From Pseudomonadota bacterium (GTDB lineage: Bacteria; Pseudomonadota; Alphaproteobacteria; Rhizobiales; Hyphomicrobiaceae): a DNA stretch of 64,000 nucleotides. Of the stretch, positions 9,601 to 64,000 are shown one piece after another (position 1 is the stretch's first letter; every line of letters begins with the position of its first letter). Under the pieces are notes generated by a model that was not told where the DNA came from, did not search any database, and saw only the letters and a list, made by a program, of their open reading frames with translations. A program made the translations under genes and the position numbers. The stretch covers positions 620,001-684,000 of the forward strand of contig JAFECE010000003.1 in the NCBI GenBank assembly GCA_018242295.1. Direction: 5' to 3'.

Positions 9601-12600
9601 ATGTCCAACACGAAAATGCTCATCGATGCCACCCACCCTGAGGAGACTCGGGTCGTGGTTCAACGCAACGGCCGGGTAGAGGAATTCGACTTCGAAAGCG
9701 CAGCCCGCAAGCTGCTTCGCGGTAATATCTATCTCGCAAAGGTGACGCGCGTTGAGCCGTCACTTCAAGCCGCTTTCGTCGATTACGGCGGGAACCGTCA
9801 CGGGTTTCTCGCCTTCAATGAAATCCATCCCGATTATTATCAGATTCCGGTCGCTGACCGGCAGGCGCTTCTCGACGAGGAAGCCGCCGCCGAAGCCGAG
9901 CTTGAAGCCGCCGCAGACCGGCGTGCAGAAGCTCTCGCGCGGCGTGCAGCTTCCCGCGGCGGTTCAGACACTGCCGAGCGGAGCGAAAGCGAAGCCAACG
10001 GCGACGAAGAGTACGGCGATCACGGCTCCGATGACGCCGGCGCCGAGTCTGCCCACATCGTCGACGTCGAGGAAGACGAGCACATCGAAGAAATCGGCGG
10101 CGACGAGGACGAGGAAGCTCCGACCGTCATCGCTGCGTCCGTTTCGCGCTCGGACGACGACGTTCGCTCTGAAGCGATAAAGGAGCACTCCGAGGCGCCC
10201 GTCGCAGCTCGCAACGACAACGATGCCGACGACGAAGCGGCACGTCCGAGCGACGAGGCTCGCGACAGTGCGGCGGCCAGCGACGAAGACGCGCCGCACG
10301 AACATGGCGAGCATGAGCACGATCACTCTCACGAGCATGCCGCAAGTGGCGAGAGCGACGAGCATGATCATGACCATGATCACGATCACGATCATTCCGA
10401 TCATCATCATTCCGAGCCGCACGCATCGCATGACGAACGCGGCGCCGATGCGGAGGAAGGTTCGAGCCGGGAAGATCGCGAAGAGGCGCCCCAGCGCCAG
10501 CGTCGCCGCCCGCGCAGCTACAAGATCCAGGAAGTCATCAAGCGCCGCCAGATCATTCTCGTCCAGGTGGTCAAGGAAGAGCGCGGCAACAAAGGCGCGG
10601 CTCTGACGACGTATCTGTCGCTTGCCGGCCGGTACACGGTTCTCATGCCCAATACCGCCCGCGGCGGTGGCATTTCGCGCAAGATCACCAATCCGCAGGA
10701 CCGCCGCCGCCTCAAGGCCATCGCTCAGGAGCTCGAGGTTCCGGAGGGCATGGGCCTCATCATCCGCACGGCGGGCGCTGCGCGGACGAAGCAAGAGATC
10801 AAACGCGATTTCGAATATCTGCTCAGGCTCTGGGAAAGCGTGCGCGAGCTGACATTGCAGTCCACCGCGCCGAGCCTCGTCTATGAAGAGGGCGATCTGA
10901 TCAAGCGATCGATCCGCGATCTCTATAACAAGGACGTGGAAGAGATCGTGGTTGCCGGTGAAGCGGGGCATCAGGAAGCTGCCGACTTCATGAAGATGCT
11001 GATGCCGAGCCACGCGAAGAACGTCATCCCGTACCGGGAGCCGACGCCGCTCTTCACGCGCTACGGCGTCGAGCGCCAGCTCAACGCCATGTTCCAACCG
11101 CAGGTAACACTGCGCTCGGGCGGCTACATCGTCATCAATCAGACGGAAGCGCTGGTCGCCATCGATGTGAACTCCGGAAAATCGACGCGTGAGTTCTCGA
11201 TCGAAGAAACGGCGCTGGCGACGAACCTCGAAGCGGCCGATGAAATCGCCCGGCAGTTGAAGCTTCGCGACCTTGCGGGCCTCATCGTCATCGACTTCAT
11301 CGACATGGAAGAGAAGCGCAACAACCGGGCCGTCGAGCGCCGGTTGAAGGACGCTCTCCGTTTCGATCGCGCGCGCATTCAGCTCGGGCGCATTTCGCAC
11401 TTCGGCCTCATGGAAATGTCGCGGCAGCGACTGCGAACAGGCGTGCTCGAAGGCTCGACCTCGCAGTGTCCGCACTGCCAAGGCACCGGCATCATCCGTT
11501 CGACCGAGAGTATCGCGCTCGCAGTTCTGCGCGGTCTCGAAGACGCGATCACAGCGGGCGCAACGGGTGCTCTCACGGCAACGACGACGCCGGCTGTCGC
11601 GCTCTACATCCTCAACAGCAAGCGTGCCTACATCACCGACATGGAAGCGCGTCACGGCCACACGATCACCGTGCTCGGCAGCGATCGGGTCCAGGGTGCG
11701 AACTTCACGGTTGAACGTGGCGGCGCCGCGGCCCCTGTGCGCCGCGTCGAACGGGCTGCGGTGAATATGGATTGGGGCTTCGACGGCGAGGAAGAGGCGC
11801 CATCGTTCGAGGGCGGCGAGATTGAAATCGCGCCCGATAGCGACGAAGCCGAGGATACCGTCGCCGGTCGCGAATCCGGTCGTGGCGAAGGCGAGGAAGG
11901 CGGCAACCGCCGCGGACGCCGCCGCCGGCGCCGTGGACGCGGTGGACGCGATCGCGGCGAAGGTCAGGGTCGCGAACGCATCGGATTCGAGCCGCGCGCA
12001 GATGCCGAGAGCTCCGGCGCTTCCGGTCCGCATAGCGACGACGATGCCGAAACCGGCCATGGCGACGATGAGGAAGCCGACGCCCAGCCGAATGTTGACG
12101 CTGCAGATTTCGGAGAACAACCCGGCACCGGGAACAGCGACAAGCCTGGACGGCGTCGCCGCAGGGGTCGTCGCGGCGGCCGTCGCGGCAGAGAACGCGG
12201 TGGCCGGGAAGATTCGAGCCTAGCCGCCGAAGGCCATGAGGGCGAAGGCTTCAGCGGAGACCAGCCCGAGGTCACCGACGTGGAGTCGGTGGACGTCGAA
12301 TCCGTCGATGCCGGGCCCGGTGTCGAGGCGGACGAAGCATCGGATAAGGCGGTGGCGCGGCGCTCGGCTTCTGGCCGATCGGAGGGCCGGAACGCCTCGG
12401 CCGAGAAATCGGGCGGCGCAAATCAACGCCCGCGGCGCATTTGGGATGCACCTTCCGCATCAGGAGACGACAGCGGCGCTGAAACCCAGCCTGCCGCCGC
12501 CGCTCCGGATCTCTCGGTGAAAGTCGAGGAGCCCGAGCGAGCCGCCGAAACGCCGCTCGCCGCAGCGCCGGAGGAAAGCGTTCCCGTCACGCGGCTTCGG

Positions 12601-12744
12601 CGGCGTCACGAAGTCGGATCGAGCGAGCCGCGCATCGAACGCGTCGTCGTTCGGCCCGGCGAAGAGAGCGATACCACGGTCGCCGAAGTCCAGGCGGTTC
12701 CACAGCGTAAGGGCTGGTGGCAGAGAAAGCTCAGCGGCGAATAA
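9601..12744 (+). CDS. rne: Ribonuclease E with histidine-rich insertion in the S1 domain
   Basis: A 1047-residue endoribonuclease, the scaffold of the RNA degradosome. The S1 domain begins near residue 37 (LLRGNIYLAKVTRVEPSLQA) and is split: after about residue 85 there is an acidic, low-complexity insertion of roughly 220 residues, and S1 resumes at YKIQEVIKRRQIILVQVVKE. Residues 231-277 hold about 18 histidines. The DNase I-like catalytic domain has AIDVNSGKSTREFSIEETA and VIDFIDMEEKRNNRAVE, with the Zn-link CPHCQGTG near 623. The C-terminal half has arginine-rich RNA-binding blocks and ends KGWWQRKLSGE. In Caulobacter a C-terminal GWW motif of RNase E binds PNPase, so this one probably does too. 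Confidence 0.95.
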   Translation: MSNTKMLIDATHPEETRVVVQRNGRVEEFDFESAARKLLRGNIYLAKVTRVEPSLQAAFVDYGGNRHGFLAFNEIHPDYYQIPVADRQALLDEEAAAEAELEAAADRRAEALARRAASRGGSDTAERSESEANGDEEYGDHGSDDAGAESAHIVDVEEDEHIEEIGGDEDEEAPTVIAASVSRSDDDVRSEAIKEHSEAPVAARNDNDADDEAARPSDEARDSAAASDEDAPHEHGEHEHDHSHEHAASGESDEHDHDHDHDHDHSDHHHSEPHASHDERGADAEEGSSREDREEAPQRQRRRPRSYKIQEVIKRRQIILVQVVKEERGNKGAALTTYLSLAGRYTVLMPNTARGGGISRKITNPQDRRRLKAIAQELEVPEGMGLIIRTAGAARTKQEIKRDFEYLLRLWESVRELTLQSTAPSLVYEEGDLIKRSIRDLYNKDVEEIVVAGEAGHQEAADFMKMLMPSHAKNVIPYREPTPLFTRYGVERQLNAMFQPQVTLRSGGYIVINQTEALVAIDVNSGKSTREFSIEETALATNLEAADEIARQLKLRDLAGLIVIDFIDMEEKRNNRAVERRLKDALRFDRARIQLGRISHFGLMEMSRQRLRTGVLEGSTSQCPHCQGTGIIRSTESIALAVLRGLEDAITAGATGALTATTTPAVALYILNSKRAYITDMEARHGHTITVLGSDRVQGANFTVERGGAAAPVRRVERAAVNMDWGFDGEEEAPSFEGGEIEIAPDSDEAEDTVAGRESGRGEGEEGGNRRGRRRRRRGRGGRDRGEGQGRERIGFEPRADAESSGASGPHSDDDAETGHGDDEEADAQPNVDAADFGEQPGTGNSDKPGRRRRRGRRGGRRGRERGGREDSSLAAEGHEGEGFSGDQPEVTDVESVDVESVDAGPGVEADEASDKAVARRSASGRSEGRNASAEKSGGANQRPRRIWDAPSASGDDSGAETQPAAAAPDLSVKVEEPERAAETPLAAAPEESVPVTRLRRRHEVGSSEPRIERVVVRPGEESDTTVAEVQAVPQRKGWWQRKLSGE

Positions 12745-12752
12745 TGAGGCTT

Positions 12753-12780
12753 AAGAGGCCAGGAGCAGTCTTGGCCTCTT
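12753..12780 (+). terminator. rne terminator stem-loop
   Basis: Perfect 9-bp arms AAGAGGCCA / TGGCCTCTT with a 10-nt loop, starting 9 bp after the rne stop codon and followed by CTC. A likely transcription end or 3'-end-protecting hairpin. Confidence 0.65.
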
Positions 12781-12990
12781 CTCAAAACCGCCGGCGCCGC
12801 GCGCCTCAAGTCCACCCGGGAACGAGCAAATCACCCTTCAACATTTGCTATTCTCGGTTGTCACTCTGATGCCCTAAAGTGATGACTGATGCGGCTATCA
12901 TCCGCGTCGTAATTGACCCAGCGGGGCTTGCTGCCTAGTTTGCCCGCGCGTGGCGTCTCGACGCGGTTCATCGAGAGCGGGGCAAATCCA

Positions 12991-14400
12991 ATGCCTGACA
13001 TTCCGAGGACTTTTCCGGCGTTCTCGGCCGCCAAAAGCGGTTTGCTCATGGCTGCCGTCTTCGCCGCCCTGTTCCTCACACCGGCACCCTGCGCACGCGC
13101 GCAGGGGTTGCCCCTCATCCGCGATGCCGAGATCGAGGCGTTGTTGCAGGATTATGCAAAGCCCATTTTCCAAGCGGCTGGTTTCGGCGGCGGCCGGGTA
13201 ACCGTCCGGATCGTCAACAACGATGCCTTCAACGCATTCGTTCTCGATGGCGGCAACGTGTTCGTGCACACCGGCACGCTGATGCAGGCCAACACGCCGA
13301 ACGAAGTCATCGGCGTTATCGCGCATGAAAGTGGCCATATCGCCGGCGGTCACATGGCGGCTCTCAGGGCGCGGATCGCCAAGGATCAAACGCGCGCATT
13401 GCTAACGCAGGTGCTTGGCATCGGCGCGATGGTCGCGGGCGGCGTCTCAGGCGGCAGTGGCGGCCGCGACACGATGCAGGGCGGCCAAGCGCTCTTGCAG
13501 GGCGGCACGTCCGTCATCATGAAGGGACTGCTGGCCGAGCGCCGCTCGCAGGAATCCGCCGCGGATCAAGCCGGCATCAAATATCTCACAGCCACGAAGC
13601 AGTCCGGCAAAGGCATGCTCGACACGTTCGAGCGCTTCAAGGAACAGGAATATCTGACGGATCAATTTCAGGACCCATTCGTGCGGTCGCATCCCCTTTC
13701 CGTCGACCGCTTAGCGCGACTGAACCAGCTCGCAACGACAAGTCCGTATTTCGGGCAGAAGGACCCTCCGTCGCTTCAGCTTCGGCACGATCTGATGCGG
13801 GCAAAATTGTCGGGCTATCTCGAAAATCCGACGACGGTGTTCAACCGTTATCCCGAAAGCAACACGACACTTCCAGCTCGCTATGCGCGGGCTATCGCAA
13901 AATTCTTCAAAGGCGGCCCTGGCGCATTGGAAACGGCAGTGCAGGACGCCGAAGGCATGATCCGCGAGAACCCGTCGTATCCGTATTTCTACGAGCTCAA
14001 GGCCGACTTCTTGATGAGATCGGGAAAAATGGTCGCAGCCGTGCCGAGCCTGCGACAGGCGCTTAAGCTCGCTCCGAGCAGCCCTTTAATCCGCGTCGAA
14101 CTCGCGAGCGCCTTGCAGAACAGCGATAATGCCGAGGCGCAAAAGGAAGCATCGGACCTATTGCGTAAATCCCTCGTAGACGATTCAGAAAACGGCCACG
14201 CTTACAGATTGCTCGCCAATGTCTATTATAAGCAGGGCAAGTCCGCAGAAGCCGATGCCATGACGGCGCAGGCTTACTTCTTCGAAGGAAACATCAAGCA
14301 AGCGCAGCTCTTCGCGAAACGCGCACAACTGCAGCTACGTGCGGGTTCACCCGAGTGGCTGAAAAATGACGACATCATCAATTACAAACCGCAGACGTAA
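12991..14400 (+). CDS. Periplasmic M48 metalloprotease with TPR-like repeats (BepA/YfgC-like)
   Basis: A 469-residue protein. A signal peptide (about 10-37, GLLMAAVFAALFLTPAP then CARAQG) leads to an M48 protease domain with the zinc motif HESGH (112-116) in VIGVIAHESGHIAGGHMAA, the downstream glutamate in QESAADQAGIKYL, and after about residue 280 a helical TPR-like region. The BepA family degrades misfolded outer-membrane proteins and helps LptD assembly. The ATG at 12991 is chosen because it starts just before the signal peptide; the longer frame uses TTG. A DsbA-type gene follows 35 bp downstream, so the two probably share a transcript and both act on envelope proteins. Confidence 0.9.
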   Translation: MPDIPRTFPAFSAAKSGLLMAAVFAALFLTPAPCARAQGLPLIRDAEIEALLQDYAKPIFQAAGFGGGRVTVRIVNNDAFNAFVLDGGNVFVHTGTLMQANTPNEVIGVIAHESGHIAGGHMAALRARIAKDQTRALLTQVLGIGAMVAGGVSGGSGGRDTMQGGQALLQGGTSVIMKGLLAERRSQESAADQAGIKYLTATKQSGKGMLDTFERFKEQEYLTDQFQDPFVRSHPLSVDRLARLNQLATTSPYFGQKDPPSLQLRHDLMRAKLSGYLENPTTVFNRYPESNTTLPARYARAIAKFFKGGPGALETAVQDAEGMIRENPSYPYFYELKADFLMRSGKMVAAVPSLRQALKLAPSSPLIRVELASALQNSDNAEAQKEASDLLRKSLVDDSENGHAYRLLANVYYKQGKSAEADAMTAQAYFFEGNIKQAQLFAKRAQLQLRAGSPEWLKNDDIINYKPQT

Positions 14401-41146: not shown

Positions 41147-41770
41147 TTACGCCGCGAGATCGCGCGCCAGGGCGGCAGCTTCCGCGATAGCAGTCTCTCT
41201 TGCCTCGGCGCCGAGAAGGCCCTTCTCCACTGTGATCGCCTTGATCTCGCCAACGCCAAGGAAGGACAGCCAAGACATCAGATAGGCTTTCTGATAGTCC
41301 AGGTTTTCTTCCGAAATGGGCGTGCCGTCAACATATTCCAGGCCGCGCGCACAGACGATAACGGCGCGCTGCCTCCTCAGCATTCCACCAAATCCGTTTG
41401 CATCGAATGTAAACGTGACGTCCTTTTGGGTTACCAAATCGATCAAATGCTTCAGGCGATAGGGAACACCAAAATTCCACATCGGAACGGACATGACGAT
41501 TTCATCAGCCGCACGAAAGCGGGCGCCAAGCGCATCAATCGCAGCCCATGCAGCTTTCTGGGCTGCGTTGAGAGGCGTTCCCGCGAGGCCCGCGTACTTG
41601 GCTTCGAGTGCGGCGCCATCAAACGCCGGCAGATCCTCAGTCCAAACGTCGAGCACATCGAGGTCGATTGCGCCCTTCGCGCGCAGAGCATCTATGTAGG
41701 ATTGAGCCACACGCTCCGATGCGGAACGGGCGCCGCGCGGCGACGCCTGGATGTAGAGAATTCTTTTCAT
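41147..41770 (-). CDS. azoR: FMN-dependent NADH-azoreductase (second AzoR)
   Basis: A 207-residue AzoR paralogue, with MKRILYIQASPRGARSASER, VPMWNFGVPYRLKHLIDLVT, FGGMLRRQRAVIVCARGL and YLMSWLSFLGVGEIKAITVE. It reduces quinones and azo compounds with NADH. ATG 41770 fits the family start and is preceded by GGTGAA. It is 105 bp downstream of the AhpD-like gene on the same strand, so they may share a transcript controlled from the operator at 42297. Confidence 0.9.
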   Translation of the reverse strand: MKRILYIQASPRGARSASERVAQSYIDALRAKGAIDLDVLDVWTEDLPAFDGAALEAKYAGLAGTPLNAAQKAAWAAIDALGARFRAADEIVMSVPMWNFGVPYRLKHLIDLVTQKDVTFTFDANGFGGMLRRQRAVIVCARGLEYVDGTPISEENLDYQKAYLMSWLSFLGVGEIKAITVEKGLLGAEARETAIAEAAALARDLAA

Positions 41771-57483: not shown

Positions 57484-57891
57484 TTATGCTTTCTGACCTT
57501 TGCCAGATAGGTACGCGGTATAAGCCTCGGATGTGAGGAGCTGCGCGGTATCTGAGGGCTCCAACCGTAGTTTCAGAAGCCATCCCTGTCCGTAACAATC
57601 TTCATTGATGAGCTGGACGGACTTCTTCAACGAAGCGTTAGGTTCAAGGATGGCTCCTGAAATCGGCGAGTGCAGGTCAAACACCACCTTGCTTGATTCC
57701 ACGGCGCCGAACGTCTCCCCCTGCGTAACCTTGGTTCCAGCCACTGGCAGGTCTACAAACAGGATTTTCCCGAGCTGCTTCTGCGCGTACTGCGTAATGC
57801 CCAGGTGGTATTCCCCTGCTGCTTCGGCAGGCCGCAGCCAGAAATGTGTCTCGTGATACAAGAGATCGTCAGGAAAATTGAAGGATGTCAT
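57484..57891 (-). CDS. GcvH-like lipoyl-carrier protein
   Basis: A 135-residue lipoyl-domain protein of the GcvH family. The lipoylated lysine is K68 in AVESSKVVFDLHSPISGAI, and DLLYHETHFWLRPAEAAGEY and GITQYAQKQLGKILFVDLPV are typical. There is no gcvT or gcvP here, so it may not serve the glycine cleavage system. It overlaps the lpd gene by 23 bp, which implies coupled translation, and is last in the osmC-lpd-lbp operon. In Hyphomicrobium, GcvH-like LbpA proteins work in sulfur oxidation with sHdr enzymes; none of those is present either. Its Lpd neighbour would re-oxidise or reduce its lipoate. Confidence 0.85.
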   Translation of the reverse strand: MTSFNFPDDLLYHETHFWLRPAEAAGEYHLGITQYAQKQLGKILFVDLPVAGTKVTQGETFGAVESSKVVFDLHSPISGAILEPNASLKKSVQLINEDCYGQGWLLKLRLEPSDTAQLLTSEAYTAYLSGKGQKA

Positions 57892-59278
57892 GGTGCTGCC
57901 GTTTGCTGAGGAGCTTATGCGTGGCTTGCCCGAGTGCGTCCTCTACAGCCTCCAGAACCGCTTCCGCGATCGTCGGATGCGCGTGAACCGTTGCACGCAG
58001 TTCTTCTGCTTTACCGTATCTTTGCAAGAGCAAAGCACCCTCATGCACCAATTCTGAGGCATGTGGTCCGATGATGTGCAGTCCCAGAAGATGCCCGTTA
58101 TCTTTGGCCACAATGGCTTTTACGAAACCCGAAATTTCACCCAAGGCATGCGCCCGACCAAGAGCACGCAAATCGAATTTTCCGACTGTGTAATCAAGCT
58201 CGTCACGCTTCGCTTCTTCCTCAGTGCGCCCGACATAGGCAATTTCCGGATGGGTAAACACGGCGACCGGAATGGCACGATCCCGGATGGGTGTGCAATG
58301 ACGGTTGAGGAAATGGTCTACGGCGAGCTTCGCTTGGGCTGACGCCGCGTGCGCAAGACCGGACCGGCCATTTACATCACCGGCGGCGTAAATATCGGCG
58401 GCCGTCGTTCTCATGAGATCGTCGACGACGATTTCGCCATAACCGTTAATTGCCACACCGGCACTTTCGAGCCCGAGGTTTTTCGAATTCGCGTCACGGC
58501 CAATGGCGACTAACGCGCGTTCGGCCACCGCGACCGCTTGGCCGTCCTTATACGCTACGACGCCTTCCGGTTCGCGGACAACCCGTTCGATCCTGCAATC
58601 GAAGATGCACTTGATTCCGTTCTTTCGCATTTCTCGCTGCAGCACTACGGAAACGTCCTTGTCTCCTGCCGACATCAGCCGCGAGCCACTGGCTAGGATC
58701 GTAACATCGACATCGAGGCTTTTTAGTATGCAGGCAAACTCGCAGGCGATGATGCCGGACCCGATAATAAGGATGGATTGCGGTAAGCTCTCCCACTGCA
58801 GCAGATCATCAGAGGTTCCGATGAAGGCGCCATCAATGTCGAAGCCGGCTGGCGCGGTTGGAAAGGAACCCGTACAGATAAGCGTGGCATCCGGCCTGAT
58901 CACCTTGTCGGCGACGCGCAGGGTGTCTTCGTCGATGAAGCATCCGTAGCCGCGAATGCATGTCACGCTTCGGTTTTCCATGAGTCGATCGATGCCTTCG
59001 CCCAGCATCGCGACTACTTCGCTGAAGCGCTGCTTGAGTTTCGACCAATCTGCCGATATTGACCCGACGGTCTGAAGACCGAACTCCTCCGCGCGTTTGA
59101 ACTTTTCGAGAAGCACGCAGCTCTCGACCAGCACCTTGGTCGGAATGCATCCCTGATGTAGACACGTTCCGCCAAGGGGTCTGGGATCGATAAGTGTCAC
59201 GCGGGCGCCGTGGGCGGCCGCGTGGGAAGCGGCGACGTAGCCCGCAGGCCCGCCGCCGAGAATTGCCAAATGCCTCAT
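57869..59278 (-). CDS. lpd: Dihydrolipoamide dehydrogenase
   Basis: A 469-residue flavoprotein disulfide reductase. An FAD motif (LAILGGGPAGYVAASHAAAH), the redox cysteines C39 and C44 in GGTCLHQGCIPTK, an NAD site (ILIIGSGIIACEFACILKSL), a second FAD contact (DIYAAGDVNGRSGLAHAASA) and the C-terminal catalytic HAHPTIAEAV. It exchanges electrons between NAD(H) and the lipoyl group. It begins within a TGATG overlap with the osmC stop and overlaps the lipoyl gene at its end. The tight placement suggests it serves that specific carrier rather than the pyruvate or 2-oxoglutarate complexes. Confidence 0.95.
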   Translation of the reverse strand: MRHLAILGGGPAGYVAASHAAAHGARVTLIDPRPLGGTCLHQGCIPTKVLVESCVLLEKFKRAEEFGLQTVGSISADWSKLKQRFSEVVAMLGEGIDRLMENRSVTCIRGYGCFIDEDTLRVADKVIRPDATLICTGSFPTAPAGFDIDGAFIGTSDDLLQWESLPQSILIIGSGIIACEFACILKSLDVDVTILASGSRLMSAGDKDVSVVLQREMRKNGIKCIFDCRIERVVREPEGVVAYKDGQAVAVAERALVAIGRDANSKNLGLESAGVAINGYGEIVVDDLMRTTAADIYAAGDVNGRSGLAHAASAQAKLAVDHFLNRHCTPIRDRAIPVAVFTHPEIAYVGRTEEEAKRDELDYTVGKFDLRALGRAHALGEISGFVKAIVAKDNGHLLGLHIIGPHASELVHEGALLLQRYGKAEELRATVHAHPTIAEAVLEAVEDALGQATHKLLSKRQHHDILQFS

Positions 59279-59817
59279 CAGGCCGTGGCCTCGAGCACCA
59301 GAGGATGATCGTTGAGTGTCACGCTACCGGTGACCTCAACCGGCACCTGCAGGGTGTTGAGAACCGGACAGTGGGTTTCAACGACCTGCACTAGCTTTGC
59401 CATCGCTTCGGGACTTGCTGAACTGCGGATTTTTGTTTCGAACATGATCTTCTGGAACCCTGCCCGAACACTGGGATCCATCGCGAAAAGACCGCGAAGA
59501 TCAAGATGACCGCGGACGTCGCACTTCACGCTTTCCAGCGGAATGCCCATCACAGCCCCGTATGCGCGATAAACGATCTCCTGGCATGTGCCGAGAGCGG
59601 CAAGAACGACTTCAACGGGGTTCGGCCCACGATCCATACCGCCAAGCTCTGGCGGCTCATCGATGCTCATCGCCGGAAATTCGCGGATTTTGCTGGTGCA
59701 ATGCATGCCTTCGCCGAGCTCGGTTGATGCACGGAAGACGACCTTGGCAGCACCCGGATTGGCCTTGATATTATCGATAGCGGAAAGCAGGGTCTTCTTG
59801 ATATGCTCCGTGGACAT
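59278..59817 (-). CDS. OsmC/Ohr-family protein
   Basis: A 179-residue OsmC-fold protein with the two family cysteines: C78 in ALGTCQEIVYRAYG and C150 in VETHCPVLNTLQVPVEVTGS. In Ohr/OsmC these form the peroxide-reducing pair; Ohr-type enzymes are reduced by lipoylated proteins and Lpd rather than by thioredoxin. First gene of the operon, followed directly by lpd and the lipoyl carrier, so the electron path NADH-Lpd-lipoyl protein-OsmC is encoded together. Two extra cysteines (C40 and C99) are noted. Some OsmC homologues are not peroxidases, so the activity is inferred. Confidence 0.85.
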   Translation of the reverse strand: MSTEHIKKTLLSAIDNIKANPGAAKVVFRASTELGEGMHCTSKIREFPAMSIDEPPELGGMDRGPNPVEVVLAALGTCQEIVYRAYGAVMGIPLESVKCDVRGHLDLRGLFAMDPSVRAGFQKIMFETKIRSSASPEAMAKLVQVVETHCPVLNTLQVPVEVTGSVTLNDHPLVLEATA

Positions 59818-60765
59818 TGCATTTCCTTCCCATTTTTAGAATTATTATTGGCCGCGGAACATACGGGTATGCGGGAAGGTGCAGCAATTGGGGCTATTCC
59901 TTATTGTCTTAGGAATCACCCTAATATCTGTTTTAACTTTCGAGGGCCGCCCGACTGCGGAAAGCGACATAAATTCTTACAACTGCGACCACGCCCGCGA
60001 AGCTATTACGTAGGTGAGTTTTCTTGGGCGCGAGTGCCGTTGCTGCGCTGCGGCAGATAAAGCCACCGGCAATCCCTCTGGGCGATATACTAGGCCGCGA
60101 GCATCCAATTCACGAGACCGGATACATCGAAATAGGCCGCTGACGTCGCACCAAAGGCCATGACAGACGCATGCGATGATCCGATCTCGTGAATCAACAG
60201 CATGCCCGTGGCCGCCGTAGGCTTGGCACGATCAGGGAGCCGCCACCAATTCCAAAAAACCAAAAGCAGGCTAACCGCAAAACCGTAGACAACAACGGGC
60301 GGCAACAGTTCGACGGGTGTTCTCGCGGCAAAGCCTTACGTCCCCGTTGCTGTCTCGCTTCTTCTTGAAGAACAACAATGTGGCTATCACAAGCATCAAA
60401 CCGCTTGCATCAACTGCGTTGTGCAACGGGTCCTGGTTCGTTCAACAGGCGAGGATCGACTTCTGCATCACCTCGACAGGCGCCACAAAATGTGGAAGCG
60501 ACTTGGTCGCTCTATTTCCCCAAAACAACTGGCATATCACGCCATTCAATGGGAGCGGCAACCACTTCGATACGTCTTGCTGAAGGCATAGTCCCCTCAT
60601 CCCAGGCATCCGAACATCAAAGGATAAGGCAGCCGCGACGTCCCTCATATCCATCCAGGAAGGCTTCTGCGGATGCATAACACGCCACAGATACCACACG
60701 GACGTGAGCAGCAAACCAGGGGCTCTTGAGCGGCCTTGTTGTCGTCGCCGACGAAGCCGCATTCC
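59818..60765. other. Gap between osmC and the histidine kinase
   Basis: About 950 bp. It probably contains the promoter of the osmC operon near its left side. A 71-residue frame (60090-60305, minus) with a hydrophobic start (VVVYGFAVSLLLVFWNWWRL) may be a remnant of a membrane protein. Another minus frame (60442-60762) has a DMRDVAAALSFD patch that could be a decayed membrane gene. Nothing is firm. Confidence 0.4.
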
Positions 60766-62031
60766 TTAGCTGGCATAGGCTAATTCCCGATGCGCAAGTG
60801 GCAGGTTGACCACGAACGTCAATCCGCACTCGGGTGAATTGCTCGTCACTCTGAGTTGACCGCGGTGCGCTTCGACAATAGAGCGGGATATGGGAAGACC
60901 CATTCCCATCCCCATCGACTTGGTTGTGAAAAACGGCTCGAAGATCTTGTCTAGATCCGGATCTGGCAGAAGCGAACCACTGTCGCTGATCAATATTTGG
61001 ACCACATCGGATTGCGTAGCATCGGTCGTGATCGTCACGACTTTGCTGCTCGCCTGCGAACCGTCAATGGCCTCGATTGCATTGCGCACGATGTTGAGAA
61101 TCACCTGCTCGAGCTGGATGGCATCGCCCTTCACGTAGGTTGGTAAGGGGCTCGGCACCACACGGATGCCAATACCGCGCGACTGCGACTCAGGCAGCAC
61201 GACGCGCAACGCATTCGAGATGAGCACCTGCACGTCGAGCTTCCGGAATGCGGGATCACCTTTGACGAGGAACCGTCGCACACTGGCGATGATGTCGGCA
61301 GCCCGGTCCGCCTGTTTGCACACATGCTCCATGGCCCAACGAACCTCGGGATCATTTGGATTTTGATCAAGACGGTACAGACACCCACGCGAAAAGTTGG
61401 CAATCGCCGCGAGCGGTTGGTTCAGTTGATGGGCAAGAGCCGTTGTCATTTGCCCCATCGAGCTCAGGCGGGAGGCAATTGATAATTCGCGGTGGTGCAG
61501 GTGAAGTTCGTCCTCGTACCGTTTGAGTTCGCTGATATCGCGCGTGATGCCGAGGAGGGACGTGACGCATCCCTCCTTGTCGCGCAATGGCGCCGCATGC
61601 GTTTCGAGCCAACGTGTGCGGCCTTTGAGAGAAATGATCTGGAACTCGAACTTGACGTGATGACCGGCAAAGACCTTGCGGGTCATCTTCTCGTAGATCT
61701 CGCAATGGGCGGGAGATATTACATGGTAGACGGATCTTCCGACGATGTCTTCAGGCTTCTCGGCATCGATAAGATGCAGGCCCGCCGGGTTCATCTCTAA
61801 GATCGTGCCATCCTGGGACTGGATCTTCACACACTCCGGTTCCGTGGCGATGATCTGGCGAAGTCGTTGTTCGCGGTCAGCAAGTGTGCTTTCCGCGCGA
61901 ATGCGATTGGACCGTTCGGCCATGAGAAGCTTCTTCGCGTTGCCAAGGGCACGGCGCACGAAAAGCGCATATGCGCTCGTCACAACGGCCAACGCGTAAC
62001 CTGCAAATGGAAGGATTTGCGTCGTAAACAT
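60766..62031 (-). CDS. PAS-domain sensor histidine kinase
   Basis: A 421-residue kinase. A single N-terminal hydrophobic helix (LPFAGYALAVVTSAYALFV), a coiled-coil linker, a PAS domain (about 57-180, with IIATEPECVKIQSQDGTILE and ending FLLGITRDISELKRYEDELH-like), then a HisKA H-box with MTTALAHQLNQPLAAIANF (H near 202) and HATPase_c with QVILNIVRNAIEAIDG (N box), ISDSGSLLPDPDLDKIFEPF and GMGMGLPISRSIVEAHRG. FixL-like layout. No response regulator is adjacent, so it is an orphan here. The signal may be a small molecule in the PAS pocket; no haem histidine was identified. Confidence 0.92.
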   Translation of the reverse strand: MFTTQILPFAGYALAVVTSAYALFVRRALGNAKKLLMAERSNRIRAESTLADREQRLRQIIATEPECVKIQSQDGTILEMNPAGLHLIDAEKPEDIVGRSVYHVISPAHCEIYEKMTRKVFAGHHVKFEFQIISLKGRTRWLETHAAPLRDKEGCVTSLLGITRDISELKRYEDELHLHHRELSIASRLSSMGQMTTALAHQLNQPLAAIANFSRGCLYRLDQNPNDPEVRWAMEHVCKQADRAADIIASVRRFLVKGDPAFRKLDVQVLISNALRVVLPESQSRGIGIRVVPSPLPTYVKGDAIQLEQVILNIVRNAIEAIDGSQASSKVVTITTDATQSDVVQILISDSGSLLPDPDLDKIFEPFFTTKSMGMGMGLPISRSIVEAHRGQLRVTSNSPECGLTFVVNLPLAHRELAYAS

Positions 62032-62318: not shown

Positions 62319-63272
62319 ATGAATCTGCAGCAGCTAAGGTACGTCAGGGCTTTAGTCGAGGAAGGATCCTTTGTAAGCGCAGCTGCCCAATGCTCTGTCA
62401 CCCAGCCGACGCTATCGAATGGCATCGCACAGTTGGAAGCTGAACTTGGTCAACGGATTTTCCGCCGTACGACGCGCAGTTTGTCTCTCACGCCTGTCGG
62501 AGAGCGCTTGCTGCCGGCAGTGATCGAAACGCTCAAGTCATTCGACAAAATCAAGGACCTTGCGGCACAGGCTGGTCCCGCTAACAGTTCGATCCACGTT
62601 GGTATTTCCCCCGTCGTGGGGATCAGTCGAGCTCAGACCACCCTCGAAGTGTTCCAGCACAATCGTCCCGACGTGGAGCTTGTGTTTCGGGAGGCCAACC
62701 TCCAGGGCCTCAGTGATGCGCTCAAGGCTGGGGAGTTGGACTTGATCCTGGCCCCCATGGATGCCGACTGCGCCATCCTCACGGCTTACGTTTACAGGAA
62801 ACTTTGCAGTGAGCCTCTGCTCTTCCTACCGAAACTTATCGACCGGCATAGATGGAAAGGACGGACGTCCGTTGCGATTGAAGACGTAGCCGACGAAACA
62901 TTTGTGCTTGTACCAAATCTTTGCGGGCTCACTCAGGTCACGCGCAAGTTATTTGAAAGGGCCTCGCTTGTCCTCCGGCGCTATCCAGGAGAGGCCAGTA
63001 ATTACAGTGTCGTGCAAGAATGGGCTACGTTTGGACTCGGAGCTGCGCTTCTTCCGGCCTCAAAACTTGCCTCCACACCAGACGCGGACTCCGCGCTGTC
63101 GCTGACCTATCAAGGCGAACCGGTGCTCATTGACTACTACGCATTGGGCAAACCCAACACGGTATTGCCTGAACTCTTTTTCGAACTGTGGGAGGGACTT
63201 CGTCCGTTCGACATCAAGGAAGCCTGCGTACCCTCTTCCGAAGGTGATTACGTCCTCGATTGGGCGGTCTAA
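62319..63272 (+). CDS. LysR-family transcriptional regulator
   Basis: A 317-residue regulator with the N-terminal winged HTH (MNLQQLRYVRALVEEGSFVS, AAAQCSVTQPTLSNGIAQLE, LGQRIFRRTTRSLSLTPVGE) and a LysR substrate-binding domain (HVGISPVVGISRAQTTLEVF, ELVFREANLQGLSDALKAGE, LDLILAPMD). The helix-turn-helix and the short-pitch core fit the CysB/OxyR-like group; the cysteines at about 26, 152, 164 and 209 are worth noting but do not match OxyR's pair by position. Divergent from the histidine kinase. Confidence 0.92.
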   Translation: MNLQQLRYVRALVEEGSFVSAAAQCSVTQPTLSNGIAQLEAELGQRIFRRTTRSLSLTPVGERLLPAVIETLKSFDKIKDLAAQAGPANSSIHVGISPVVGISRAQTTLEVFQHNRPDVELVFREANLQGLSDALKAGELDLILAPMDADCAILTAYVYRKLCSEPLLFLPKLIDRHRWKGRTSVAIEDVADETFVLVPNLCGLTQVTRKLFERASLVLRRYPGEASNYSVVQEWATFGLGAALLPASKLASTPDADSALSLTYQGEPVLIDYYALGKPNTVLPELFFELWEGLRPFDIKEACVPSSEGDYVLDWAV

Positions 63273-63741: not shown

Positions 63742-64000
63742 CTAGAAGTTGATGAGTGCGCCAGCCGTAATCACGTTGATGTTGTCAAACTTGCCCGTGA
63801 GGCTGTCGCCGCCGTTGTTGAAGCCTGCCGGCGTCGGGCTCCCAGGACCCGAAAGCGTCGGCTGGTATTGCTTGAAGTTGACCCAAAGCGACATTGAGGC
63901 GGCGTCGATTTCCTGAACGGCGCCGACACCCCACTGCGTAAGGTCGCTTCCCGTCACTCCAAAGAGGGTCAAAGCCTCCTGGAACATATCCGAGCGTTTG
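63742..64000 (-). CDS. Porin, C-terminal part (runs off the window)
   Basis: The visible 86 residues are the end of an outer-membrane porin: MFQEALTLFGVTGSDLTQWG, VGAVQEIDAASMSLWVNFKQ, and the last strand GKFDNINVITAGALINF, ending in phenylalanine, the outer-membrane insertion signal. The frame continues without a stop past position 64000 (KRSD before the methionine), so the gene's start lies outside. It resembles the large porins of Hyphomicrobium-type bacteria. It marks a return to core-like sequence. Confidence 0.85.
   Translation of the reverse strand, partial: KRSDMFQEALTLFGVTGSDLTQWGVGAVQEIDAASMSLWVNFKQYQPTLSGPGSPTPAGFNNGGDSLTGKFDNINVITAGALINF

Follow-up and report, generated by a model that had tools for sequence, protein, structure and literature searches.

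Lipoylated proteins are reported to be the reductant of Ohr in Xylella, and in the hydrogenosome of Trichomonas vaginalis, which has no full glycine cleavage system, an OsmC protein is described as detoxifying peroxides through the L and H proteins (Nyvltova 2016). LbpA, a GcvH-like lipoyl carrier of sulfur metabolism, belongs to the sHdr system and occurs also in Hyphomicrobium. Here we analyse a three-gene locus (the trio) in a window of 64,000 nt, the whole stretch of contig JAFECE010000003.1 (assembly GCA_018242295.1, Hyphomicrobiaceae) under study, where an OsmC-like protein, a dihydrolipoamide dehydrogenase (Lpd) and a GcvH-like lipoyl carrier are encoded together (Table 1; all positions are window positions). 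Similarly to the Trichomonas system, which already established the idea of a lipoyl-fed OsmC, the trio unites OsmC with an H-type carrier and an L protein. In contrast to those organellar components, the trio forms an operon, its relatives are linked to methanethiol genes and its OsmC is, by alignment, without the triad Arg and Glu of Ohr, a contrast that rests on the published description of the protist system. On balance we lean towards reading the trio as a dedicated lipoyl-dependent reductase module of methanethiol (C1-sulfur) metabolism, probably located in the cytoplasm.

All three genes lie on the minus strand and overlap as an earlier note on this DNA had described, OsmC and Lpd sharing 1 base and Lpd and the carrier 23 bases, and the translations bear out the residues it named, namely C78 and C150 of OsmC, the C39/C44 pair of Lpd and the lipoyl lysine K68 of the carrier. 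The Pfam scores of the three proteins all exceed the cut-offs (OsmC PF02566, 68.0 bits; Pyr_redox_2, 206.8; GCV_H, 114.5), while the assignment of Lpd as a dihydrolipoamide dehydrogenase follows from its TIGR01350 score (452.3 against a cut-off of 408.8) and its redox pair. The source genome (4.05 Mb, 11 contigs, 99.99% complete) encodes LipB and LipA above cut-off, thus canonical lipoylation is available. No evident signal peptide was seen by eye in the trio proteins, and an Rfam scan of the window returned a single tRNA and no riboswitch near the trio. Synonymous sites are saturated and dN/dS is unusable, hence only the ratio of non-synonymous to synonymous differences per site (pN/pS) is given: in comparison with the related genome G016 it is 0.16 for OsmC, 0.24 for Lpd and 0.35 for the carrier, all three frames being still open, and in comparison with G008 it is 0.21, 0.33 and 0.46, respectively.

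Among 150 related genomes, the source included, a close OsmC (57–78% identity, at least 229 bits) is present in five others, the next match scoring 100.9 bits. In all six close-OsmC genomes the carrier is placed beside OsmC or one gene further, and Lpd lies between them in four, so that the three-gene order proposed for checking by the earlier note holds throughout for the carrier and in part for Lpd. A wider scan of named genomes with an alignment of the six OsmC sequences yielded 100 loci, of which 80 were kept, with flanks of up to 10 kb on each side, many of them cut by contig ends. The carrier is found in 17 of these loci, Lpd in 15, either of the two in 23 and both in 9, and the pairing of OsmC with carrier and Lpd recurs in several proteobacterial lineages. 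The 16 Lpds encoded in OsmC loci (15 named and that of G008) display a complementary architecture. Every plain Lpd without a lipoyl domain (10/10) has a GcvH-type carrier in its locus, and the same holds for the window's own Lpd, while all six Lpds from loci without such a carrier (L087, L095, L100, L102, L103 and L106) bear an N-terminal Biotin_lipoyl domain (Fisher p 1.2e-4, relatedness ignored). The six lipoyl-fused Lpds are spread over three branches of the OsmC tree. In addition, lipoylation genes lie inside the clusters themselves, LipA in Methylophilus (L061) and both LipB and LipA in Methylobacillus (L091). Since the carriers are complementary and LipA and LipB are clustered with them, there is strong indirect evidence that OsmC partners a lipoyl carrier and Lpd. 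One further OsmC relative (46% identity; L128) comes from a metagenome-assembled genome (MAG) titled Klebsiella pneumoniae, which may be mistitled or wrongly binned.

In relatives the trio neighbours a cluster of mtoX, SCO1 and mauG, mtoX encoding methanethiol oxidase (MtoX). The 20 kb around the trio of G082 (L036) encode, by Pfam, SBP56 (MtoX), SCO1, MauG, a porin and a rhodanese. Counted at a hidden Markov model score above 300, mtoX is located within the flanks of 20 of the 80 named OsmC loci, which span alpha-, beta- and gammaproteobacteria and include Hyphomicrobiaceae, Methylophilus, Methylobacillus, Sedimenticola selenatireducens and Methylophaga thiooxydans DMS010. A carrier or Lpd accompanies OsmC in 14 of these 20 loci, compared with 9 of the remaining 60 (Fisher p 9e-6, relatedness ignored). 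Within the 150 relatives an MtoX of at least 57% identity is encoded by 12 genomes (one a fragment), and all six close-OsmC genomes are among them (Fisher p 6e-8, ignoring relatedness and computed with 151 genomes where 150 were searched). Of 398 genomes drawn from the phylum (thresholds E ≤ 1e-35 for OsmC and E ≤ 1e-90 for MtoX), three encode OsmC and five MtoX, the source genome alone having both. Comparison of sequences supports the three-part composition, the recurrent pairing, the complementary carriers, the linkage to mtoX and the canonical lipoylation genes.

Other sulfur genes adjoin the OsmC clade as well. Rhodanese genes are adjacent to the carrier in several loci, some clusters contain SQR-like matches, and L106 includes a lactamase-rhodanese protein of the persulfide-dioxygenase type. 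OsmC lies between MetY and MetX, with an S-adenosylmethionine (SAM) riboswitch (RF00162) upstream, in two loci (L098:8372-8483 and L112:5223-5332); both are Bacteroidota/Ignavibacteria-type MAGs and tie the clade to methionine synthesis. In Methylococcales-type loci (L068:7028-8134 and its neighbours) OsmC stands beside the dimethylsulfone monooxygenase SfnG, acyl-CoA-dehydrogenase-like genes and an FMN reductase. Two arrangements near mtoX concern carriers alone. In G039 a GcvH-like carrier is found about 3.5 kb from MtoX (L195:8117-8485 and 12051-13301) in a genome with no close OsmC found, and in G016 (C8; L190:8529-8969) an LbpA gene lies next to a gene that is HdrB-like by eye and about 13 kb from mtoX, so that a single island can hold both an sHdr and an mto module.

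The OsmC of the trio belongs to the OsmC/Ohr superfamily by both its PF02566 score and the fold of its predicted structure (AlphaFold, pLDDT 95.4), and C78 and C150 are invariant across a 52-sequence alignment. It matches neither TIGR03561 (Ohr; searched at E ≤ 0.001) nor TIGR03562 (OsmC peroxiredoxin). A separate orthodox Ohr is encoded elsewhere in the source genome (TIGR03561, 162.2 against a cut-off of 88.85), and in a MAFFT alignment with this protein the trio OsmC keeps both cysteines but aligns Val68 with the catalytic Glu and has a residue other than Arg where Ohr has its catalytic Arg. It further differs from Ohr in having a private carrier and Lpd borne by its operon. Its score against NF041052, the model of an OsmC-related (seleno)protein, is 94.1, against a cut-off of 95. 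Four remoter OsmC matches (G112:C156, G072:C300, G058:C29 and G031:C159) each contain one in-frame TGA and may be selenoproteins of the NF041052 type or broken genes.

The trio carrier is the only strong GcvH-family match of the source genome (114.1 bits), the second GCV_H match above the cut-off of 22.2 being a 27.7-bit piece inside a 474-aa frame. No protein of the genome reaches the GcvP cut-off (best GDC-P match 18.5 bits, cut-off 26), which, for GcvP, extends to the genome the lack of gcvT and gcvP that the earlier note had described for the operon, GcvT not having been searched. The carrier scores 115.0 against TIGR00527 (GcvH equivalog, cut-off 115.85) and 131.2 against NF002270 (GcvH subfamily, cut-off 117). 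In a tree of 52 rows, among them 19 trio carriers, the group of GcvH adjacent to GcvT or GcvP (27 GcvH and one unplaced row; support 94/96, just below star level) contains none of the 19, although six of them are closer to it through a poorly supported fork (53/85). The LbpA rows form a separate branch with support 100/100, and the trio carriers lie outside it. A single clade of all 19 is not rejected (p-AU 0.459), yet it is not demonstrated. The lipoyl lysine is retained in 19 of 20 trio carriers and is followed by a motif that reads KVV in 10 of the 20 and other variants in the remainder, in contrast to KAAS or KTAS in bona fide GcvH (few exceptions) and KWVGPAKS in LbpA. The region L090:12232, from a Thiogranum MAG, displays a second GcvH-like gene near OsmC that is without the lipoyl lysine. 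LbpA is described as marked by a pair of conserved cysteines, one close to each terminus (PMC6067878), which is missing from the trio carrier, whose sole cysteine is C99; Cys99 itself was dropped as a special mark of the carrier, as the solved GcvH 2edg also has Cys there. No second GcvH-family protein resembling LbpA was found in the source genome, nor did a scan of nine proteins in and around the trio reveal any sHdr gene, sHdr not having been searched genome-wide. Thus, a GcvH serving GcvP is rejected on genome content and tree, and the LbpA-like alternative raised in the earlier note fails on tree, motif and cysteines, the phylogenetic check it proposed having placed the carrier with neither group. 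The carrier nevertheless shares with GcvH its sequence family and lipoyl lysine, and with LbpA a GcvH-like character in a sulfur setting. Lipoylation by sLpl(AB) and LipS1/S2 is a feature of LbpA, from which the trio carriers differ further through the canonical LipA and LipB of two clusters.

Published expression data touch relatives of the trio and other OsmC proteins at several points. In the dimethyl sulfide (DMS) transcriptome of Methylophaga thiooxydans (Kroeber and Schaefer 2019, PMC6548844) an Lpd is reported among the highly induced genes, its role being assigned to dehydrogenase complexes and to glycine cleavage. The gene MDMS009_894 (41243-41737 of scaffold 1104571000277), read from the other end, corresponds exactly to L106:4393-4887, so L106 is mto-cluster 2 of that study. 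The lipoyl-Lpd beside OsmC in L106 is the sole strong Lpd match on this scaffold, and tag 809 falls among the tags of mto-cluster 2 (768 and 894 as stated; 765, 886 and 921 by pairing with cluster 1). From tag order and scaffold, MDMS009_809 is probably the L106 lipoyl-Lpd (L106:10636-12345) and hence the DMS-induced transcript, while MDMS009_906 would be the FadL-like gene L106:13457-14665. In the proteome of the same organism an Lpd, whether or not that of L106, is reported up 7.67-fold together with pyruvate dehydrogenase E2 at 7.50-fold (PMC6548844). An osmC behind a SAM-V riboswitch is described as the most up-regulated transcript of sulfur-limited Pelagibacter (PMC5069961), and an OsmC-like protein beside SQR as up in Rhodococcus on an organic disulfide (PMC5157978); both may or may not be of the trio-OsmC clade. 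No open-licence paper in PubMed Central (PMC) was found that combines OsmC, lipoyl, GcvH and dihydrolipoamide dehydrogenase or that joins OsmC with methanethiol oxidase, and the main text of Eyice et al. contains neither "OsmC" nor any word starting with "lipo". Nor was any description of this operon, of its link with methanethiol genes, of the OsmC subfamily within it or of the complementarity of the carriers found in the open-licence papers searched.

In the mechanism we propose, K68 of the carrier would be lipoylated and electrons would pass from NADH through Lpd to its lipoyl group and on to the C78/C150 disulfide of OsmC, the three proteins coming into physical contact. C78 would take a sulfur-bound oxidant arising around methanethiol oxidation, which might be sulfane sulfur, a persulfide or, as in the case of dimethyl disulfide (DMDS), a mixed disulfide with a methyl group, and C150 would resolve the adduct with release of sulfide or methanethiol. 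Reduction of sulfane sulfur or of a methyl disulfide is favoured because the Ohr residues are lost, a separate Ohr is present and sulfur genes form the context. More specifically, and only as a tentative proposal, the trio might be an NADH-dependent reductase of methylated disulfides and persulfides, converting for example DMDS to methanethiol or MtoX-derived sulfane sulfur to sulfide, and thus a lipoic-acid-dependent enzyme system not described before, with an OsmC that moved from peroxide to sulfur chemistry. A DMDS reductase activity is known from the older literature on thiobacilli, and we know of no gene for it; a full-text search of open-licence PMC papers under the name of this enzyme matched only a food review.

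Several observations weigh against a methanethiol module. In the source genome mtoX, SCO1 and MauG share the contig of the trio at a distance of about 180 kb and are not adjacent to it, mtoX is also far from the trio in G008, and it was not seen in the H. zavarzinii locus, which extends only 2.6 kb upstream of OsmC. No mtoX was seen in 60 of the 80 named OsmC loci, neither carrier nor Lpd in 57 of them, and 6 of the 20 mtoX-linked loci have neither partner. No Lpd was seen in 8 of the 17 carrier loci, where an Lpd of general function might stand in. When MtoX is compared with carrier or Lpd in a pair test that takes phylogeny into account, the association is not significant (of 6 usable pairs 2 to 3 agree and 0 to 1 are opposed; median p 0.25). 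Close OsmC is absent from 6 of the 12 MtoX-bearing relatives and from 4 of the 5 MtoX genomes of the 398-genome draw. The link between OsmC and MtoX is not obligatory. In addition, Ohr and the Trichomonas OsmC are reported to reduce peroxides with the same partners, and the authors of the Pelagibacter (PMC5069961) and Rhodococcus (PMC5157978) studies read their OsmC as peroxidases.

The same NADH-Lpd-lipoyl-OsmC chain could accordingly detoxify H2O2 or organic peroxides and shield the cell from the H2O2 of methanethiol oxidase, an explanation that we hold possible but doubtful. According to Eyice et al., there is evidence that MtoX forms formaldehyde, H2S and H2O2 (the last not quantified), catalase and a peroxiredoxin are reported up in M. 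thiooxydans on DMS, and the trio OsmC shares with Ohr, known to be reduced by lipoylated proteins, the fold and both cysteines. In contrast, neither an Ohr-model match nor, by alignment, the Arg and Glu of the triad is found in the trio OsmC, a separate orthodox Ohr is encoded in the genome, and OsmC relatives neighbour MetY/MetX and SfnG. MtoX is described as exported whereas the trio proteins carry no evident signal peptide. Furthermore, Cao et al. (2024) report that the methanethiol oxidases of Rhodobacteraceae yield sulfane sulfur and no H2O2, by way of an intermediate of the form Cys-S-S-CH3, and they assume similar behaviour of the enzyme from Hyphomicrobium. Of the dedicated peroxide-reducing line from NADH through Lpd and lipoyl to OsmC put forward in the earlier note, the dedicated line is supported, the carrier being neither a GcvP-serving GcvH nor LbpA and the lipoyl carriers being complementary; the peroxide label as such is not supported, though a peroxide substrate is conceivable, in view of the missing model matches and triad residues and of the sulfur-gene neighbours in part of the loci. 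The breakdown of organic sulfur, rather than a general defence against peroxides, is the probable role of the trio.

The flow could also be reversed, with the carrier taking sulfane sulfur or electrons from sulfur oxidation, Lpd forming NADH as proposed for LbpA in sHdr, and OsmC acting as a sulfur carrier. Dihydrolipoate is reported to accept rhodanese sulfane sulfur, reoxidation of the dihydrolipoyl group to NADH has been proposed for LbpA, and the rhodanese genes beside the carrier, the SQR-like matches and the lactamase-rhodanese protein of L106 would suit this direction. We nonetheless judge it improbable, as tree, motif and cysteines separate the carrier from LbpA, the source genome encodes no LbpA-looking second carrier (with sHdr searched for around the trio only) and OsmC also occurs with the biosynthetic MetY and MetX. 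An ordinary H and L pair, detached from glycine cleavage and lying beside an unrelated OsmC gene, would explain the NF002270 score of the carrier; with no GcvP above cut-off in the genome, a GcvT/P-adjacent GcvH group that stands separately and a pairing with OsmC that recurs in several proteobacterial lineages, it is very unlikely.

Returning to the methanethiol module, the gene set around the trio in the source genome matches the mto neighbourhood of relatives, a context missed by the earlier note. The response-regulator and TauE/SafE remnants, likewise absent from that note, lie between the intact kinase and OsmC. Thus, the locus is losing its neighbours, with decayed TauE and response-regulator genes beside an intact kinase and an intact trio.

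Table 1 Features of the trio and its surroundings in the 64,000-nt window.
Feature	Position	Strand	Remarks
GcvH-like lipoyl carrier, 135 aa	57484..57891	-	GCV_H; K68
Dihydrolipoamide dehydrogenase (Lpd), 469 aa	57869..59278	-	Pyr_redox_2, TIGR01350; C39/C44
OsmC-like protein, 179 aa	59278..59817	-	PF02566; C78 and C150
TauE/SafE remnant	59936..60399	-	Matches in three frames; gene intact in G016
Response-regulator remnant	60535..60711	-	Matches in two frames; gene intact in relatives
PAS histidine kinase	60766..62031	-	Similar kinase upstream of OsmC in six related genomes; 72.5% identity over 404 aa to that of G016
LysR-type regulator	62319..63272	+	Related to the LysR beside mtoX in relatives
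Porin, C-terminal part	63745..63999	-	Like the mto-cluster porin; continues beyond the window end

A methanethiol module of this kind, if confirmed, would add a lipoic-acid-dependent step to the breakdown of methanethiol and DMS, which is a sulfur flux of global importance. It would also account for the induction of a dihydrolipoamide dehydrogenase that had been ascribed to dehydrogenase complexes and glycine cleavage. An OsmC subfamily readily mistaken for a peroxidase would gain a function, and the free-standing GcvH-like carriers of bacteria, which serve glycine cleavage and sHdr, would have a further use.

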